Origin: an uncultured Hellea sp.
GTDB taxonomy: Bacteria; Pseudomonadota; Alphaproteobacteria; Caulobacterales; Maricaulaceae
DNA length: 57,418 nt
Assembly (NCBI GenBank): GCA_905477785.1
Contig: CAJQGR010000039.1
Coordinates: 1-57,418, forward strand
Direction of reading: 5' to 3'
The notes under the pieces were generated by a model. The model did not search any database, was not told the origin of the DNA, and was given only the letters and a program-made list of their open reading frames with translations. The position numbers were made by a program, and so were the translations under genes. The stretch's first letter is position 1. The number at the start of each line of letters is the position of its first letter. This document shows, piece after piece, positions 16,917-41,909 of the stretch.

Positions 16917-18218
16917 TTATTTTGAGTTTTCAAAATGTCTATAAAATATTACTCCTACAATAATAATTGTTATGCTACCTAATGCATTTAAAGGCGCGTT
17001 AGCGGCTGCCATTGCAATCATAATAAATGTTATAATTAAATAAAAAGCAGGAACAAATGGATAGCCAAAGGTTTTGTATGGACGAATTAAGTCCGGTTCT
17101 TTCCTGCGTAAAACAAATACACCAAGAATTGCTAAAAAACTATTTAATGCAAGTATCATTCCCGCAAAAATAATGATTTTTTCAAAGCTTGATGTAAAAA
17201 TATATATTAATGAAATTATGGATTGGAAGTAAATTGCATTTTCTGGAATATCTGATTTATTTACTTTGGACAAAAAACTAAGAGAATTGAAGTCTTCTCC
17301 TATTGCTTGAAGAGCTCTTGGTCCAGCTATTATCATAGCGCTTACAGTTGAAATCAATAGCAAGGATAGCATCAATCCTACAATTGCAGCTCCATTTGAA
17401 CCAAATATATTTACAGCAGCAATGTAACCAATTTCTGTTTTGCCTTCAAGGTCTGCTATTGGTGATGAGTATAAGAAGGCAATATTAAGTAATAAATAAA
17501 GAACCATAACAGTGGCAGTTCCGATCAAAAGAATTTTAGGTAGTTCTTTTTGAGGTCTTTCAAGCTCACTTGTTATGTAAACAGCGGCATTCCATCCTGT
17601 GTAAGCATAAGAAACATAAATTAAAGAAATTCCAAAAGCGGTACTTGTAAGTATTTTGAAATCATCTTTTTGAGGTAAAAATGAAATAGGTTGAGGTTCT
17701 GGTGTAATAGTAAAAGCACAAAGGCAGAAGCCAATTATTAGAAAAACTTTTATAGATGTAAATCCAATTTGAAATTTACCACTAATATTTTTATTTTTAA
17801 CGTGAATGAGCGTTATGATAAGAACTAAAAGACATGCAATTATTTTTTTTATCCAAATGGGCTGTGAGCCAAATATAATTGCAGTACTATAATCACTAAA
17901 TGCAAGTGCTACGGCAGCAATAGGTGCTGCGAAACCGATAACAGTTGATATCCAGCCTGATATAAAACCAGCGAGAGGGTGGTATATTCTACCAAGGAAG
18001 TTATATTCTCCTCCTGAGCGAGGTAACGCTGAACCAAGCTCAGCATATGTTGCAGCGCCGCATAAAGCTGCAATTCCACCAACTGTCCATAGCAAAACTA
18101 AAAGAAATGTGGATTGGATGTCCATTAGTTGGAAGCCGATAGAGGTGAAAACACCTGTTCCTATCATATTTGCAATTATTACAGAGGTAGCAGCCTTTTT
18201 ACTGTAGTATGTTCTCAT
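16917..18218 (-). CDS. APC superfamily amino acid permease
   Basis: This is an inner-membrane transporter of the amino acid-polyamine-organocation superfamily. The 433-residue protein has about twelve hydrophobic helices. The first carries the IGTGVF substrate-binding signature (ANMIGTGVFTSIGF), and helix 3 has the family's ELGSALPRSGGEYNF motif. Substrate cannot be told from sequence; a neutral or cationic amino acid is likely. It stands alone on the opposite strand between lolD and the micropeptide-dnaE unit. The ribosome-binding site is weak. Confidence 0.87.
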   Translation of the reverse strand: MRTYYSKKAATSVIIANMIGTGVFTSIGFQLMDIQSTFLLVLLWTVGGIAALCGAATYAELGSALPRSGGEYNFLGRIYHPLAGFISGWISTVIGFAAPIAAVALAFSDYSTAIIFGSQPIWIKKIIACLLVLIITLIHVKNKNISGKFQIGFTSIKVFLIIGFCLCAFTITPEPQPISFLPQKDDFKILTSTAFGISLIYVSYAYTGWNAAVYITSELERPQKELPKILLIGTATVMVLYLLLNIAFLYSSPIADLEGKTEIGYIAAVNIFGSNGAAIVGLMLSLLLISTVSAMIIAGPRALQAIGEDFNSLSFLSKVNKSDIPENAIYFQSIISLIYIFTSSFEKIIIFAGMILALNSFLAILGVFVLRRKEPDLIRPYKTFGYPFVPAFYLIITFIMIAMAAANAPLNALGSITIIIVGVIFYRHFENSK

Positions 18219-18264: not shown

Positions 18265-18306
18265 AATTGACATATCAAACAAATTTATGTAGAACAAAAG
18301 GTGAAC
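18265..18306 (+). promoter_or_regulatory. SOS promoter with perfect alphaproteobacterial LexA box
   Basis: A consensus -35 TTGACA at 18267-18272 is followed after 17 bases by TAGAAC at 18290-18295. A direct repeat GAAC-N7-GAAC at 18292-18306 overlaps the -10 box. This is a perfect match to the known alphaproteobacterial LexA operator (GTTC-N7-GTTC on the other strand). A repressor there would block the promoter. Transcription would start near 18302 and read the 30-codon gene at 18353, then dnaE. Confidence 0.82.
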
Positions 18307-18352
18307 ATATAAGCTTTTTAGGATTTTACTAACACATAAATGGAGATTTTAT

Positions 18353-18445
18353 ATGAAACAATTACTATTAGATGTTACTAACGGAATAGTTATGGCTGGT
18401 TTTGTAGTTATAACTACATTATGGTTTATTGTTATTGGAGGATAG
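18353..18445 (+). CDS. SidA-like SOS-controlled membrane micropeptide (30 aa)
   Basis: This short open frame runs from ATG 18353 to TAG 18443-18445, with a TGGAG ribosome-binding site at 18341-18345. The peptide begins MKQLLLDVTNG, then has one continuous hydrophobic helix from about residue 11 to 28, including a LWFIVIGG end. No family could be recognised from sequence alone. Size, single-helix topology and a perfect LexA operator upstream are what is known for SidA, the 29-residue SOS-induced division inhibitor of Caulobacter that acts on the FtsW/FtsN division machinery. Homology is inferred from these properties, not shown by alignment. The gene lies 24 bases before dnaE on the same strand. 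It could instead be a leader peptide for dnaE. Confidence 0.72.
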   Translation: MKQLLLDVTNGIVMAGFVVITTLWFIVIGG

Positions 18446-18469
18446 CCTCTAATAAAGAGGGAGTACTGA

Positions 18470-21400
18470 GTGGCAAGATCGCCGGTTTTTGTTCATCTTA
18501 GATCACGCTCTCCTTATTCGCTATTAGAAGGTGCGCTAAAGATTGAAGAGACAGCACAACTGTCTCGAAGAATGGGCATGCCTGCTCTAGCGCTTACTGA
18601 TACTAATAATATGTGCGGTGCTCTTGAGTTTTCAGAAATTCTTACAAAAGAGGGAATACAACCTATTATAGGTTTAACTCTTAGTATTGAGACTGAAAAA
18701 ACAAAAAATACTGTTCATAATAATAAAGTATTGGATGGAACTTTAGTTCTCTTAGCCAAGAATGAAATTGGCTACTGTAATCTTATGAAATTGAGTAGTT
18801 CAGCTTTTCTTGATGTTGAGCCCTATGATTTACCTCATTTTAGATCATCTCAACTATCCGCTTTCTCTGATGGACTTATTGCTCTTACTGGAGGCCCAGA
18901 AGGCGTTTTAAATAAGCTTATTTGTCAAGGACAGTTAGATAAAGCTGAAGAATGGTTAGACTATTTATTGGATATATATTCTGATAACTTATACATTGAG
19001 TTGCAAAGGCACGGGTTGCATGATGAAGTAATTGCAGAAAAGCATTTGATTAATTGGGCTTACGCTAAAGGAATAAGATTAGTAGCTACAAATGAGCCTT
19101 ACTTTTTGAATCCTGATATTTTTGAGTCCCATGATGCTCTCTTAGCAATGCAGGAGGGTTCATATATCCTTGAGAAGGATAGAAGAAGACTGACTCGCCA
19201 GCATTACTTTAAATCTACAGAAGAAATGGTAGATTTATTTAAAGATCTACCAGAAGCAATTGAAAATACTATTAATATTTCTAAAATGTGTTTGGTTAAA
19301 TCAGTTAAGCGCGATCCCATTCTTCCAAGCTTTAGTGATGGCTCTTTAAGTGAAGGTGATATCCTTGATCAACAAGCACATGAAGGTTTAAAGAGACGTT
19401 TATCTAAGATTAAATTATCAGCCCCTAAAAGGGATTACGTTAAAAGATTAGAATTTGAAATTAAAATAATTCGCCAAATGGGGTTTCCTGGTTATTTTTT
19501 AATAGTTTCTGATTTTATAAAATGGGCAAAATCTCAAGGTATACCAGTTGGACCAGGCCGTGGGTCTGGAGCTGGGTCGGTTGTTGCATGGGCTTTAACT
19601 ATAACCGATTTAGATCCTCTTAAGTACGGTTTGCTTTTTGAAAGGTTTCTAAATCCTGAAAGAGTTTCTATGCCTGACTTTGATATAGATTTCTGTCAAG
19701 AACGGCGTGGGGAAGTTATCAAATACGTTCAAGAAAAGTATGGTGAAGATCAGGTGGCTCATATTATTACATTTGGAACGCTTCAGGCAAGGGCAGTTGT
19801 AAGAGATGTTGGTAGAGTTATGCAAATGCCTCTACCTCAAGTTGATCGTTTAGCTAAACTTGTGCCTTCGAACCCAGCAAATCCTGTTTCATTGAGCGAA
19901 GCGGTTAAGATGGAAAAAGGTTTACGTGATGCTAAAGCTGAAGACCCTGCAGTAAGAAAGTTACTCGATACAGCTCTGAAACTTGAGGGCTTATATCGAA
20001 ACGCATCAACACATGCTGCCGGTGTTGTTATAGGTGACAGACCCCTAACTGAATTGATTCCACTTTACCGTGACCCGAGATCTGATGTTCCTGCTACCCA
20101 ATTTACAATGAAGTGGGCAGAAAAAGCTGGATTAGTGAAATTTGATTTTCTGGGGTTAAAAACTCTTACTGTTATTGATAGGTGCATAAAGTACTTATCT
20201 AAACAGGGCATTCACGTTGATTTAGAAAATATAGATACATCAAATCCCTTAGCTTATATTCCTTTATCAGAGGGCCTTTCAGCGGGTGTATTTCAGCTTG
20301 AAAGCTCTGGAATGCGCGATGTTTTAAGAAAAATGGCACCTGATAGTATAGAGGAACTGACTGCTTTAATTTCTTTATATCGGCCCGGTCCAATGAAAAA
20401 TATACCTATGTATATTGATCGTAAGTATGGCAGATCTAAAATTGAATATCCACATGAAAGCTTAACAAATATTCTTGAGGAGACATATGGTGTTATAATA
20501 TATCAAGAACAAGTCATGCAAATAGCTCAAGTGCTTTCTGGTTATTCTCTTGGTGAGGCAGATCTTTTAAGACGCGCAATGGGCAAAAAAGATCAAGCTG
20601 AAATGAATAGGCAAAGGTCACGTTTTGTCGAAGGAGCTGCTATTAATGGTGTTGACAAGCAACTATCGAATTCAATTTTTGATTTAGTTAACGAGTTTGC
20701 TGGTTATGGATTTAATAAGTCTCATGCTGCAGCATATGCCATGATTTCCTTTCAAACAGCTTACCTTAAAGCGCTTTATCCTACTGAATTTATTGCATCT
20801 ATTATGTCATTGGACATAACTAATTTAGATAAATTAGCACAGTTTTTTCAAGAAGCTAAAAGAATGGGTATAGAAGTAGAGTTACCATGTGTGAATAGAT
20901 CTAAAGCTGATTTCGATGTGAATAATGGTAAAGTATTGTATGCTTTAGGTGCATTGAAAAATGTAGGGGTTGAAGCAATGCGTCATGTGGTCGAAGTTAG
21001 AAGCGAAGGTGGAGATTTTATTGATTTATTTGATTTTGCGAGAAGAGTTGACACACGAATTGTTAATAAAAGAGCTTTTGAAAATTTAGCGCGTGGAGGA
21101 GCTTTTGACTGTTTAGAACCTAACCGCGCAAAAGCTTTTTCATCTTCAGCAATTTTACAACAAATTGGATCAAGGTCCGCCCAGGAAAAAGCTAGTGAGC
21201 AAACTAATTTATTTTCTAGTGAAGTTGATTTTATGGTTGAACCGGACTTACCAAATACAACTGCCTGGACCAGTTTAGAGCAGTTAGATAATGAGCTAAG
21301 CGCAATCGGATTTTACCTTGGAGGACATCCGTTAGATGCATTTTTACCGATTTTACAAAGAAAAAAAACTATTATGGCTATTGATTTAGAAAGTTTTTGT

Positions 21401-21919
21401 AGTTCTGGCGGAAGAGCAGTGCGTTTGGCTGGCGTGGTCAGGAAACGTCAAGAGCGTGTTAGTAAAAGAGGGAAAAGATTTGCATTCATAAGTATATCAG
21501 ACCCTACGGGTGATTTTGAAATTTTAGTTGGTGAAGATCTTTTAGTATCGAATAGACAAATAATGGAAACTGGATCACTTTTAGAGATAACAGCCAAAGC
21601 TGAAGTAAGGGATGGAGAAGTTAGGCTTTTTGCAAATACTATAAGTCTACTTGAACTCAAAGAAGAGAAAAATTTTGCTAAAGGTTTAGAAATAAGACTT
21701 AGGTCAGCAGACTCAGATGTTCTTGATGAATTTGAAAAAGTTCTTTTATCGCTAAAAGATGCTCCATCTAAGGTTAAGGGATTCATAGATGTATTTATTC
21801 CTATTAGTAGCTCTAGAGAAGGACACTGGAGGCTCAGTGATAACTTTGGAATTGACATTGCTTTTCAGAAAGCAATTAAGGCTAATAGTTTTGTTGAACT
21901 CGTAACCGAAGTGGATTGA
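18470..21919 (+). CDS. dnaE: DNA polymerase III subunit alpha
   Basis: This is the catalytic subunit of the replicative polymerase. The 1149-residue protein has an N-terminal PHP domain (VHLRSRSPYSLLEGA, LTDTNNMCGALEF). The C-family palm carries catalytic D403 and D405 in MPDFDIDF, then the thumb/finger region (GPGRGSGAGS, GYGFNKSHAAAYA). A helix-hairpin-helix part and a C-terminal OB fold near residues 985-1025 (VRLAGVVRKRQERVSKRG) follow. The length fits DnaE1, not the shorter mutagenic DnaE2. Start is GTG 18470 with a GAGGGAG ribosome-binding site at 18457-18463. It probably shares the upstream LexA-box promoter with the micropeptide gene. Confidence 0.97.
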   Translation: MARSPVFVHLRSRSPYSLLEGALKIEETAQLSRRMGMPALALTDTNNMCGALEFSEILTKEGIQPIIGLTLSIETEKTKNTVHNNKVLDGTLVLLAKNEIGYCNLMKLSSSAFLDVEPYDLPHFRSSQLSAFSDGLIALTGGPEGVLNKLICQGQLDKAEEWLDYLLDIYSDNLYIELQRHGLHDEVIAEKHLINWAYAKGIRLVATNEPYFLNPDIFESHDALLAMQEGSYILEKDRRRLTRQHYFKSTEEMVDLFKDLPEAIENTINISKMCLVKSVKRDPILPSFSDGSLSEGDILDQQAHEGLKRRLSKIKLSAPKRDYVKRLEFEIKIIRQMGFPGYFLIVSDFIKWAKSQGIPVGPGRGSGAGSVVAWALTITDLDPLKYGLLFERFLNPERVSMPDFDIDFCQERRGEVIKYVQEKYGEDQVAHIITFGTLQARAVVRDVGRVMQMPLPQVDRLAKLVPSNPANPVSLSEAVKMEKGLRDAKAEDPAVRKLLDTALKLEGLYRNASTHAAGVVIGDRPLTELIPLYRDPRSDVPATQFTMKWAEKAGLVKFDFLGLKTLTVIDRCIKYLSKQGIHVDLENIDTSNPLAYIPLSEGLSAGVFQLESSGMRDVLRKMAPDSIEELTALISLYRPGPMKNIPMYIDRKYGRSKIEYPHESLTNILEETYGVIIYQEQVMQIAQVLSGYSLGEADLLRRAMGKKDQAEMNRQRSRFVEGAAINGVDKQLSNSIFDLVNEFAGYGFNKSHAAAYAMISFQTAYLKALYPTEFIASIMSLDITNLDKLAQFFQEAKRMGIEVELPCVNRSKADFDVNNGKVLYALGALKNVGVEAMRHVVEVRSEGGDFIDLFDFARRVDTRIVNKRAFENLARGGAFDCLEPNRAKAFSSSAILQQIGSRSAQEKASEQTNLFSSEVDFMVEPDLPNTTAWTSLEQLDNELSAIGFYLGGHPLDAFLPILQRKKTIMAIDLESFCSSGGRAVRLAGVVRKRQERVSKRGKRFAFISISDPTGDFEILVGEDLLVSNRQIMETGSLLEITAKAEVRDGEVRLFANTISLLELKEEKNFAKGLEIRLRSADSDVLDEFEKVLLSLKDAPSKVKGFIDVFIPISSSREGHWRLSDNFGIDIAFQKAIKANSFVELVTEVD

Positions 21920-39632: not shown

Positions 39633-41060
39633 TTATTCCTCAATTAAGTCTTTATATTCATCAATAATATTCTGAAGTCTAAGTAATGATTCAGTTTTAC
39701 CAAGATAATTTAATACAAGTGATAAATCAGGTGAGGGGTTACCTCCAGTAAGTGCCATTCTAACTGGTTGACCTACTTTACCAAAACCAATATTTTTTAA
39801 CTCGAGATAATTTTTAATTACTTGCTGTATATTATCATTGTTCCATTCTAGTTCTTCTAAGCATTTCAGTTCGGAAGTCAAAGCCGAGAGGTATTTTATA
39901 GCATCATTTTTTTGAAAAATTTTTTTATTTTTCTCTGTAAACTGTAGAGGTACTGTTATAATCAAGTATTCAGCTTGATTGGTTAGATCAATTATATTTT
40001 TTGAACGAGATTTTAATGATGGCATTGCATTAAGTAGTCTTTTTTCTAAAATATCATTTAATTGATATTTATTCTGTTTATCAATTGTTGAAATGAGTAA
40101 ACTTAAAAGAGTTTCATCATTTTCCTTCATTATATGTTGTCCATTGATAAAATCCATTTTATCAAAATCTAGTCGAGCAGGTGCGGAGTTTACACCATCC
40201 ATAGAAAAAATTTTTGTTATAGTGCTTTCATTAAAAAAGAGTTCTTCATCTCCATGTGCCCAACCTAACTTTAAGAGATAGTTTTTTAATCCTTTAGGCA
40301 AATACCCCATATTTTTATATTCTTGTACACTAAGTGCACCATGACGCTTGGATAATTTTTTTCCATCCGGACCATGTATTAAAGATAGGTGTGCCCATAT
40401 TGGAATTGTCCAACCTAGAGCATTATAAATCATTGCTTGTCGACCTGCGTTAATTAAGTGGTCGTCACCTCTGATAACATGGGTTATATTCATGTTATGA
40501 TCGTCAACCACAACAGCAAGCATATAAGTCGGAGTGCCATCTGCGCGAAGAAGGACAAAGTCATCAAAGTTTGCATTATTCCAATTTATATTTCCTTGCA
40601 CTAGGTCTTCTATATTTGTATTTCCATCTGGTACACGAAACCGAACGGTATAGGGTTTTTTTAGTGTTGATTTAGTATCTCTATATGGGCTTCTGAATGA
40701 TTTTCCAGTTTTTAAAGCTTCTTTACGAAGTGCTTCCAATTCATCGCTTGATGCGTAACATTTGTATGCAAATTCTGTTTCTAAAAGTTTGTGCGCTGCT
40801 TTAACATGAAGTTTTTCATTGGCTGATTGATAAATTATTTCTCCATCATGTGGAATGCCCAACCAATTTAATCCCTCAATTATTGCATCCGTTGCTTCTT
40901 TTGTTGATCTTATTTTGTCTGTATCTTCAATGCGAAGGTGAAACTCTCCATCCAGACTCTTGGCAAAATAATAATTAAAGAGAGCTGTTCTGGCTCCGCC
41001 TATGTGGAGAAAACCGGTAGGAGATGGCGCAAAACGGGTTATGACTTTTTTTACTGACAT
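39633..41060 (-). CDS. gltX: Glutamyl-tRNA synthetase
   Basis: This class I synthetase charges tRNA-Glu. The HIGH motif is in RFAPSPTGFLHIGGARTALF, the KMSKS-equivalent is KKLSKRHG, and a helical anticodon-binding domain follows. The 475-residue length is normal. The ATG at 41058-41060 has no obvious ribosome-binding site, and the 150-base gap before it holds a plausible promoter. If alphaproteobacteria with two GltX paralogs are a guide, this could also be a tRNA-Gln mischarging enzyme; sequence alone cannot decide. Confidence 0.95.
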   Translation of the reverse strand: MSVKKVITRFAPSPTGFLHIGGARTALFNYYFAKSLDGEFHLRIEDTDKIRSTKEATDAIIEGLNWLGIPHDGEIIYQSANEKLHVKAAHKLLETEFAYKCYASSDELEALRKEALKTGKSFRSPYRDTKSTLKKPYTVRFRVPDGNTNIEDLVQGNINWNNANFDDFVLLRADGTPTYMLAVVVDDHNMNITHVIRGDDHLINAGRQAMIYNALGWTIPIWAHLSLIHGPDGKKLSKRHGALSVQEYKNMGYLPKGLKNYLLKLGWAHGDEELFFNESTITKIFSMDGVNSAPARLDFDKMDFINGQHIMKENDETLLSLLISTIDKQNKYQLNDILEKRLLNAMPSLKSRSKNIIDLTNQAEYLIITVPLQFTEKNKKIFQKNDAIKYLSALTSELKCLEELEWNNDNIQQVIKNYLELKNIGFGKVGQPVRMALTGGNPSPDLSLVLNYLGKTESLLRLQNIIDEYKDLIEE

Positions 41061-41210: not shown

Positions 41211-41846
41211 TTAATTATAATTCCTGACAAGTCCTACTAAAATACCTTGGACATTAACTCTATCTGGACCAAAAACTTTAGTTTTGTGATGTTTGTTTTC
41301 CGGTATTAGTTCAATTGAATTTTCCGAAGTATAAATTCGTTTTAGTGTGGCTTCTTCCTGATCTACTAATGCAACAACTATCTGATTATTACGTGCAGTA
41401 GATGATTTTTTTATAACAACAATATCTCCATCAAGAATACCAGCTTCAATCATTGAGTCACCTTCTACCTCAAGTGCAAAATGATTTATGCCCATCATCG
41501 TTGCAGGAACTGAGATTTTGTTATAGCTGTCTTCTATTGCTGCTATTGGGTTACCAGCCGCTATTTTCCCTACAAACGGTATTTCAAACTCATCGTTAGC
41601 TGGTTGCGGAGTATAAGTATCTTCAAAATACTTAGGGGTGCTTTTTAAAACTTCTATTGCTCTTGCTTTATTAGGTAGACGACGAATGAATCCTCTATCC
41701 TCTAAAGCAGTAATTAATCTGTGTATCCCTGACTTAGAAGCTAATCCTAGGCTATCTTTCATTTCATCATAAGAGGGAGGTATACCTGTATCTTTTATTT
41801 TTTTATCGATGAGAAGAAGTAGTGTTTTTTGTTTTTTTGTTAACAT
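41211..41846 (-). CDS. lexA: LexA repressor
   Basis: This SOS repressor self-cleaves when RecA filaments form. The 211-residue protein has an N-terminal winged helix-turn-helix ([22 protein letters not shown]). The cleavage site is A97-G98 (KIAAGNP), and the catalytic dyad is S131 (EGDSMIE) and K169 (EATLKR). The frame is open further upstream, to 41909. I choose ATG 41846 because it gives the family N-terminus MLTKKQK and because the upstream codons lie inside the promoter and LexA operator. It is probably autoregulated. Confidence 0.96.
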
Positions 41847-41856
41847 GATAAACCCC

Positions 41857-41909
41857 GAACAAAACGGCAACATTATGTTTTGTTCTACAGATGTTCTCAT
41901 TAAAGTCAA
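41857..41909 (-). promoter_or_regulatory. lexA promoter with LexA boxes
   Basis: On the minus strand, TTGACT (41909-41904) and TAGAAC (41887-41882) are spaced by 16 bases. A perfect GAAC-N7-GAAC operator spans 41896-41882 and covers the spacer end and the -10 box. A second, degenerate element with one mismatch (GAAC-N7-CAAC on the plus strand, 41857-41871) lies just downstream of the expected start site near 41875. The arrangement indicates negative autoregulation, as known for alphaproteobacterial LexA. Confidence 0.82.

Follow-up and report, generated by a model that had tools for sequence, protein, structure and literature searches.

Directly upstream of dnaE, the window (the whole 57,418-nucleotide stretch of DNA analysed here) carries an unannotated homologue of the cell division inhibitor SidA. 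The gene is very probably a divergent sidA orthologue, that is, a LexA-repressed gene for a damage-induced peptide, which most likely delays division via FtsW. The more interesting result is the wider distribution of such genes. On balance, we favour the view that the SidA-type SOS checkpoint is ancient in Alphaproteobacteria, that it predates the Caulobacterales, that it persists in at least ten sampled families outside this order, and that other lineages have lost or replaced it.

Organization of the locus

The features of the locus are collected in Table 1. The TTGACA element, the LexA box over the -10 region, the ribosome-binding site and the 30-codon frame had been proposed in a sequence-only reading of this DNA, and all four were recovered at the positions listed. 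TTGACA lies 25 bp 5' of the perfect LexA box, and 46 nt separate the box from the ATG of the peptide gene. The TAGAAC hexamer is a poor -10 element and is absent from the list of the consensus promoter scan. The expectation of that reading that the product is essentially one membrane helix agrees with the AlphaFold2 model, which predicts a single helix for residues 2–28 with a mean pLDDT of 93. The gap between the peptide gene and dnaE (18446–18469) measures only 24 nt, and no terminator was found in it, so that transcription from the LexA-controlled promoter may extend into dnaE. On the 5' side of the peptide gene, an amino acid permease gene is located at 16917–18218 on the minus strand, and several relatives show the end of lolD at this place.

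Table 1. Coordinates of the peptide gene, its control elements and the associated genes in the window
Feature	Position	Strand	Basis or remark
SOS promoter, -35 element (TTGACA)	18267..18272	+	sequence; TTGAC spacing kept in relatives
-10 position (TAGAAC), shared in part with the first LexA half-site	18290..18295	+	17-nt spacer from the -35 element
LexA operator GAAC-N7-GAAC, GAACAAAAGGTGAAC	18292..18306	+	perfect match; kept at 40/40 family loci
Ribosome-binding site GGAG, 7 nt 5' of the ATG	18342..18345	+	sequence; GGAG/GGGG-type equivalents in relatives
sidA-like gene for the membrane peptide MKQLLLDVTNGIVMAGFVVITTLWFIVIGG (30 aa, one helix)	18353..18445	+	ORF, purifying selection, profile chain, helix model
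dnaE, encoding the alpha subunit of DNA polymerase III (GTG start 18470)	18470..21919	+	24 nt past the peptide stop at 18445
lexA, ~20 kb from dnaE	41211..41846	-	domains Peptidase_S24 and LexA_DNA_bind; in-frame ATG 41873 as possible alternative start
LexA operator of lexA itself, GAACATCTGTAGAAC	41882..41896	-	shows the organism's box type

By itself, the LexA box is unremarkable, and it is the position that gives it meaning. Perfect boxes of the alphaproteobacterial LexA operator type (GAAC-N7-GAAC, or GTTC-N7-GTTC) occur three times in the window compared to 0.87 times in shuffled sequences, and the 26 copies found genome-wide represent no excess over the reversed control. The same motif is located 5' of the genome's own lexA, recA (two boxes) and ruvC and between ssb and uvrA, and these genes are the classical SOS set. 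Because the motif precedes lexA, recA and ssb/uvrA, we assign the box at the peptide gene to the organism's own LexA. The third perfect box of the window, at 39840–39854, falls within a coding frame (39633–41060, minus strand) and is probably due to chance. At a separate locus (L015, G000:C50:9280-10880), a perfect LexA-type box at 807–821 lies 22 bp 5' of the frame for a 182-aa lysine-rich protein without Pfam match, which is a possible uncharacterised SOS gene.

Conservation and selection

We located dnaE in 78 of 81 relatives and then read the DNA 5' of it. At each of the 40 dnaE loci examined in the window's family, one or two LexA boxes are followed by an ORF for a membrane peptide of 27–31 aa, and in almost every case a ribosome-binding site can be recognised. 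The spacing of the promoter is kept as well: in 17 of the relatives' promoters, TTGAC is found exactly 25 bp 5' of the box, and in two-box promoters it is located 34–35 bp 5' of the downstream box. With this fixed spacing, LexA would therefore cover the -10 region. Among all loci read, within and outside the family, the distance between peptide gene and dnaE varies between ~16 nt and over 250 nt. Tandem LexA-like boxes (two or three, 11–25 bp apart) are seen at loci L046–L063, L074–L123 and L134, where often one box is perfect and one has a GAAT or GAAA half.

The substitution pattern over 20 pairs of relatives is that of a protein-coding gene under purifying selection. The pooled pN/pS amounts to 0.137 (p ~3e-55), with a per-site change of 0.358 at synonymous and 0.049 at nonsynonymous sites, and the changes at codon positions 1, 2 and 3 number 43, 18 and 163, respectively. 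Residues D7, G16, F17 and W24 of the peptide are conserved. The sequence-only reading had expected conservation of frame and LexA box in close relatives and unequal synonymous and nonsynonymous change for a true checkpoint peptide, and this is what the family displays. From this pattern we conclude that the frame is a real gene that is selected as a protein.

Homology to SidA

For the profile comparison, we formed group A3 from the window's subgroup, group A4 from another of its family's subgroups and group A2 from Caulobacteraceae SidA. In hhalign, A3 aligns with A4 at 96.9% (E 1.3e-10) and A4 with A2 at 94.9% (E 4.6e-8), while the direct alignment of A3 with A2 is weak (16.6%). As a control, columns were permuted 100 times within the N-terminal and the membrane blocks; the observed score was matched or exceeded in 0/100 permutations for A3–A4, 0/100 for A4–A2 and 3/100 for A3–A2. 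At the level of groups, a PSSM test gives the same picture; for the window sequence taken alone it is not significant (p ~0.11–0.14).

Annotation by existing models does not recover this relationship. The window peptide has no credible Pfam match, no SidA relative was found in the PDB, and neither the window peptide nor other peptides of its family are matched by NCBIfam NF033228 'cell division inhibitor SidA' at its threshold of at least 35 bits. Even within the Caulobacteraceae, two peptides encoded at this locus reach only 21–26 bits and stay below this cut-off too, so NF033228 covers only part of the SidA family.

The window's order is the Caulobacterales, and family f3 of this order corresponds to the Caulobacteraceae and includes Caulobacter vibrioides DSM 9893 (NZ_PJRR01000019.1, locus L134). 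In this strain, the 29-aa SidA, which scores 72.4 bits on NF033228, is encoded ~35 nt 5' of dnaE behind three LexA-like boxes. The gene order is lolE, lolD, an opposite-strand nucleoside-hydrolase-like gene, the boxes, the 29-aa frame and dnaE, with the first three genes named from their sequences. Box and peptide are present in 48 of 50 Caulobacteraceae loci. In the literature, SidA is a peptide of 29 aa that acts on FtsW (PMC4211646), sidA is CCNA_02004 (PMC10769358), and dnaE and lexA are CC1926 and CC1902 (PMC1839093). The earlier reading had placed sidA near dnaE in Caulobacter; the DSM 9893 locus bears this out, and the published locus tags agree (PMC10769358, PMC1839093).

SidA of C. 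crescentus and the window peptide share their location directly 5' of dnaE with lexA nearby (PMC4211646, PMC12700426). With 29 and 30 aa, respectively, both consist of one membrane helix, begin with a basic N-terminus and have an acidic residue at about position 7. Both promoters carry GAAC-N7-GAAC boxes, three in C. vibrioides and one in the window. In alignment, the window peptide and C. vibrioides SidA have ~14% identity, and the signatures read KQ...D...GFV..T.W..V.GG for the window and R.ARE..AL.SV.GFVWM for SidA. Taken together, the sequence chain, the position and the regulation support homology of the window peptide to SidA through intermediates. Of the SidA-type assignment made for this AT-rich alphaproteobacterium in the earlier reading, the LexA-controlled peptide, the chain to SidA and the dnaE locus stand, although the peptide fails the curated model and the link runs via intermediates only.

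Proposed mechanism and probable target FtsW

In the proposed mechanism, LexA bound to its operator would cover the -10 region and keep the peptide gene off. DNA damage would activate RecA, LexA would cleave itself and the 30-residue peptide would be made. The peptide is predicted to insert as one helix into the inner membrane, its K2 end facing the cytoplasm according to the positive-inside rule. LexA binding, damage induction and membrane insertion are predictions from promoter and peptide sequence, and FtsW binding and division arrest are proposed by analogy to SidA. Most likely, the peptide would bind FtsW where it forms the septal complex with FtsI and FtsN and would keep it inactive, and division would be delayed until LexA recovers.

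The genome's FtsW has 46% identity to C. vibrioides FtsW. It keeps F145 and A246 and has Leu, not Ala, at position 31. In published work, substitutions at FtsW 145 and 246 suppress SidA, and A31K blocks SidA specifically (PMC4211646). An AlphaFold 3 model of low confidence places SidA against TM7 of FtsW (PMC13396833). Family f2 has Leu at FtsW 145 in the eight genomes read (G049, G053, G057, G061, G065, G069, G073 and G077), and F145L is a published SidA-resistant FtsW mutant; the two dnaE upstream regions read in f2 are both without the peptide. A co-variation of FtsW 145 with the peptide was considered and rejected, as Phe145 is found in ~9/14 families with and ~9/22 families without the peptide (50 genomes).

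Alternative explanations

Length, single helix and LexA control of the peptide would also fit an SOS membrane-depolarising peptide of the TisB/DinQ type, which would lower the proton motive force and slow growth and would not have the divisome as its target. TisB is controlled by antisense RNA. DinQ, a membrane peptide that is toxic and controlled by LexA, is under antisense RNA control as well (PMC3567139). In the window, no Rfam match at gathering score and hence no known antitoxin RNA is found. Both E. coli peptides are of similar size to the window peptide; their locus differs. Since the profile chain and the identity of the locus point to SidA and the specific residues D7, G16, F17 and W24 are conserved, we regard this explanation as improbable.

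The short gap to dnaE, in which no terminator was found, and the persistent linkage to dnaE could also be explained by a leader ORF or 5' untranslated element, in which translation of the peptide sets DnaE levels. Such a function is hard to reconcile with amino acids that are conserved while synonymous sites vary, with the wide range of distances to dnaE and with a C. crescentus orthologue that works as a protein (PMC4211646), and we consider it very improbable. A chance ORF beside a LexA site that serves a damage-inducible dnaE has next to no probability: boxes do arise by chance about once per window and dnaE is immediately 3', but the low pN/pS, the conservation throughout the family and the occurrence of such an ORF after all 12 boxes found outside the order (see below) contradict it.

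A SidA-type peptide has several functional parallels. YneA of Bacillus subtilis, SosA of Staphylococcus aureus and ChiZ of Mycobacterium are SOS-induced small membrane division inhibitors, as proposed here for the window peptide, to which they are unrelated and compared to which they are longer. YneA acts on FtsW via its membrane helix (PMC13396833) and requires an extracellular LysM domain, which the window peptide lacks. DidA of C. crescentus, like the SidA type, has one helix, is induced by damage and inhibits the FtsW/I/N complex (PMC4211646), but it has 71 aa, is SOS-independent (DriD) and binds FtsN.

Distribution in the Alphaproteobacteria

Outside the order, we searched 67 dnaE upstream regions for a perfect box within 800 bp. 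Such a box is present in 12 of them, compared to 0.72 in shuffles, and in 12/12 cases a short membrane ORF starts 20–90 bp after the box; shuffles give 0.01 such cases, and placebo positions 2%. The 12 cases belong to ten families (f7, f8, f12, f18, f34, f45, f64, f91, f95 and f96). Their profile aligns with A4 at 94.9% and with A2 at 78.7%, with 0/100 permutations reaching the observed score, and the match is best for f7 and f12. Taken one by one, members of f8, f91, f95 and f96 do not reach significance against SidA in the PSSM test; the support for these four families therefore comes from position, regulation and topology.

Box and peptide also occur in further families of the Caulobacterales. 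They are lacking in most other sampled families, and within the order in f2, one f4 genome and two Caulobacteraceae genomes; they are lacking as well at the dnaE loci of Dongia, Cypionkella and Pseudorhodobacter. Searching 290 genomes of the class with NF033228 matched a single genome, a Caulobacteraceae. An HMM built from 34 mixed peptides recovered few members outside the order, and reading dnaE upstream regions is therefore the more sensitive approach. Our literature search found no paper on SidA outside Caulobacter. The sequence-only reading had suspected that similar peptides upstream of dnaE may be widespread and unannotated. SidA annotation is so far confined to the Caulobacteraceae, as are the matches of NF033228, and the arrangement recurs in ten families outside the order, which agrees with this suspicion; however, it is not universal.

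To our knowledge, most other alphaproteobacteria have no known means of stopping division after DNA damage. If the proposed distribution is true, the SidA-type checkpoint would be the counterpart in this class of SulA and YneA. If the peptides are SidA orthologues, their large number would reveal key residues (the acidic residue at about position 7, GF at 16–17 and W at about 19–24) and open the FtsW-binding face to mutagenesis and complementation. For annotation, a LexA box and a short membrane ORF 5' of dnaE would then provide a simple rule that catches genes overlooked by standard callers. Since the linkage to dnaE is conserved, one may also ask if the gene of the replicative polymerase is part of the SOS transcript.

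As a separate observation, four genomes of other orders (loci L219, L224, L227 and L229) have a GTTC-N7-GTTC motif 64–91 bp 5' of dnaE, possibly LexA sites acting on dnaE or chance occurrences.
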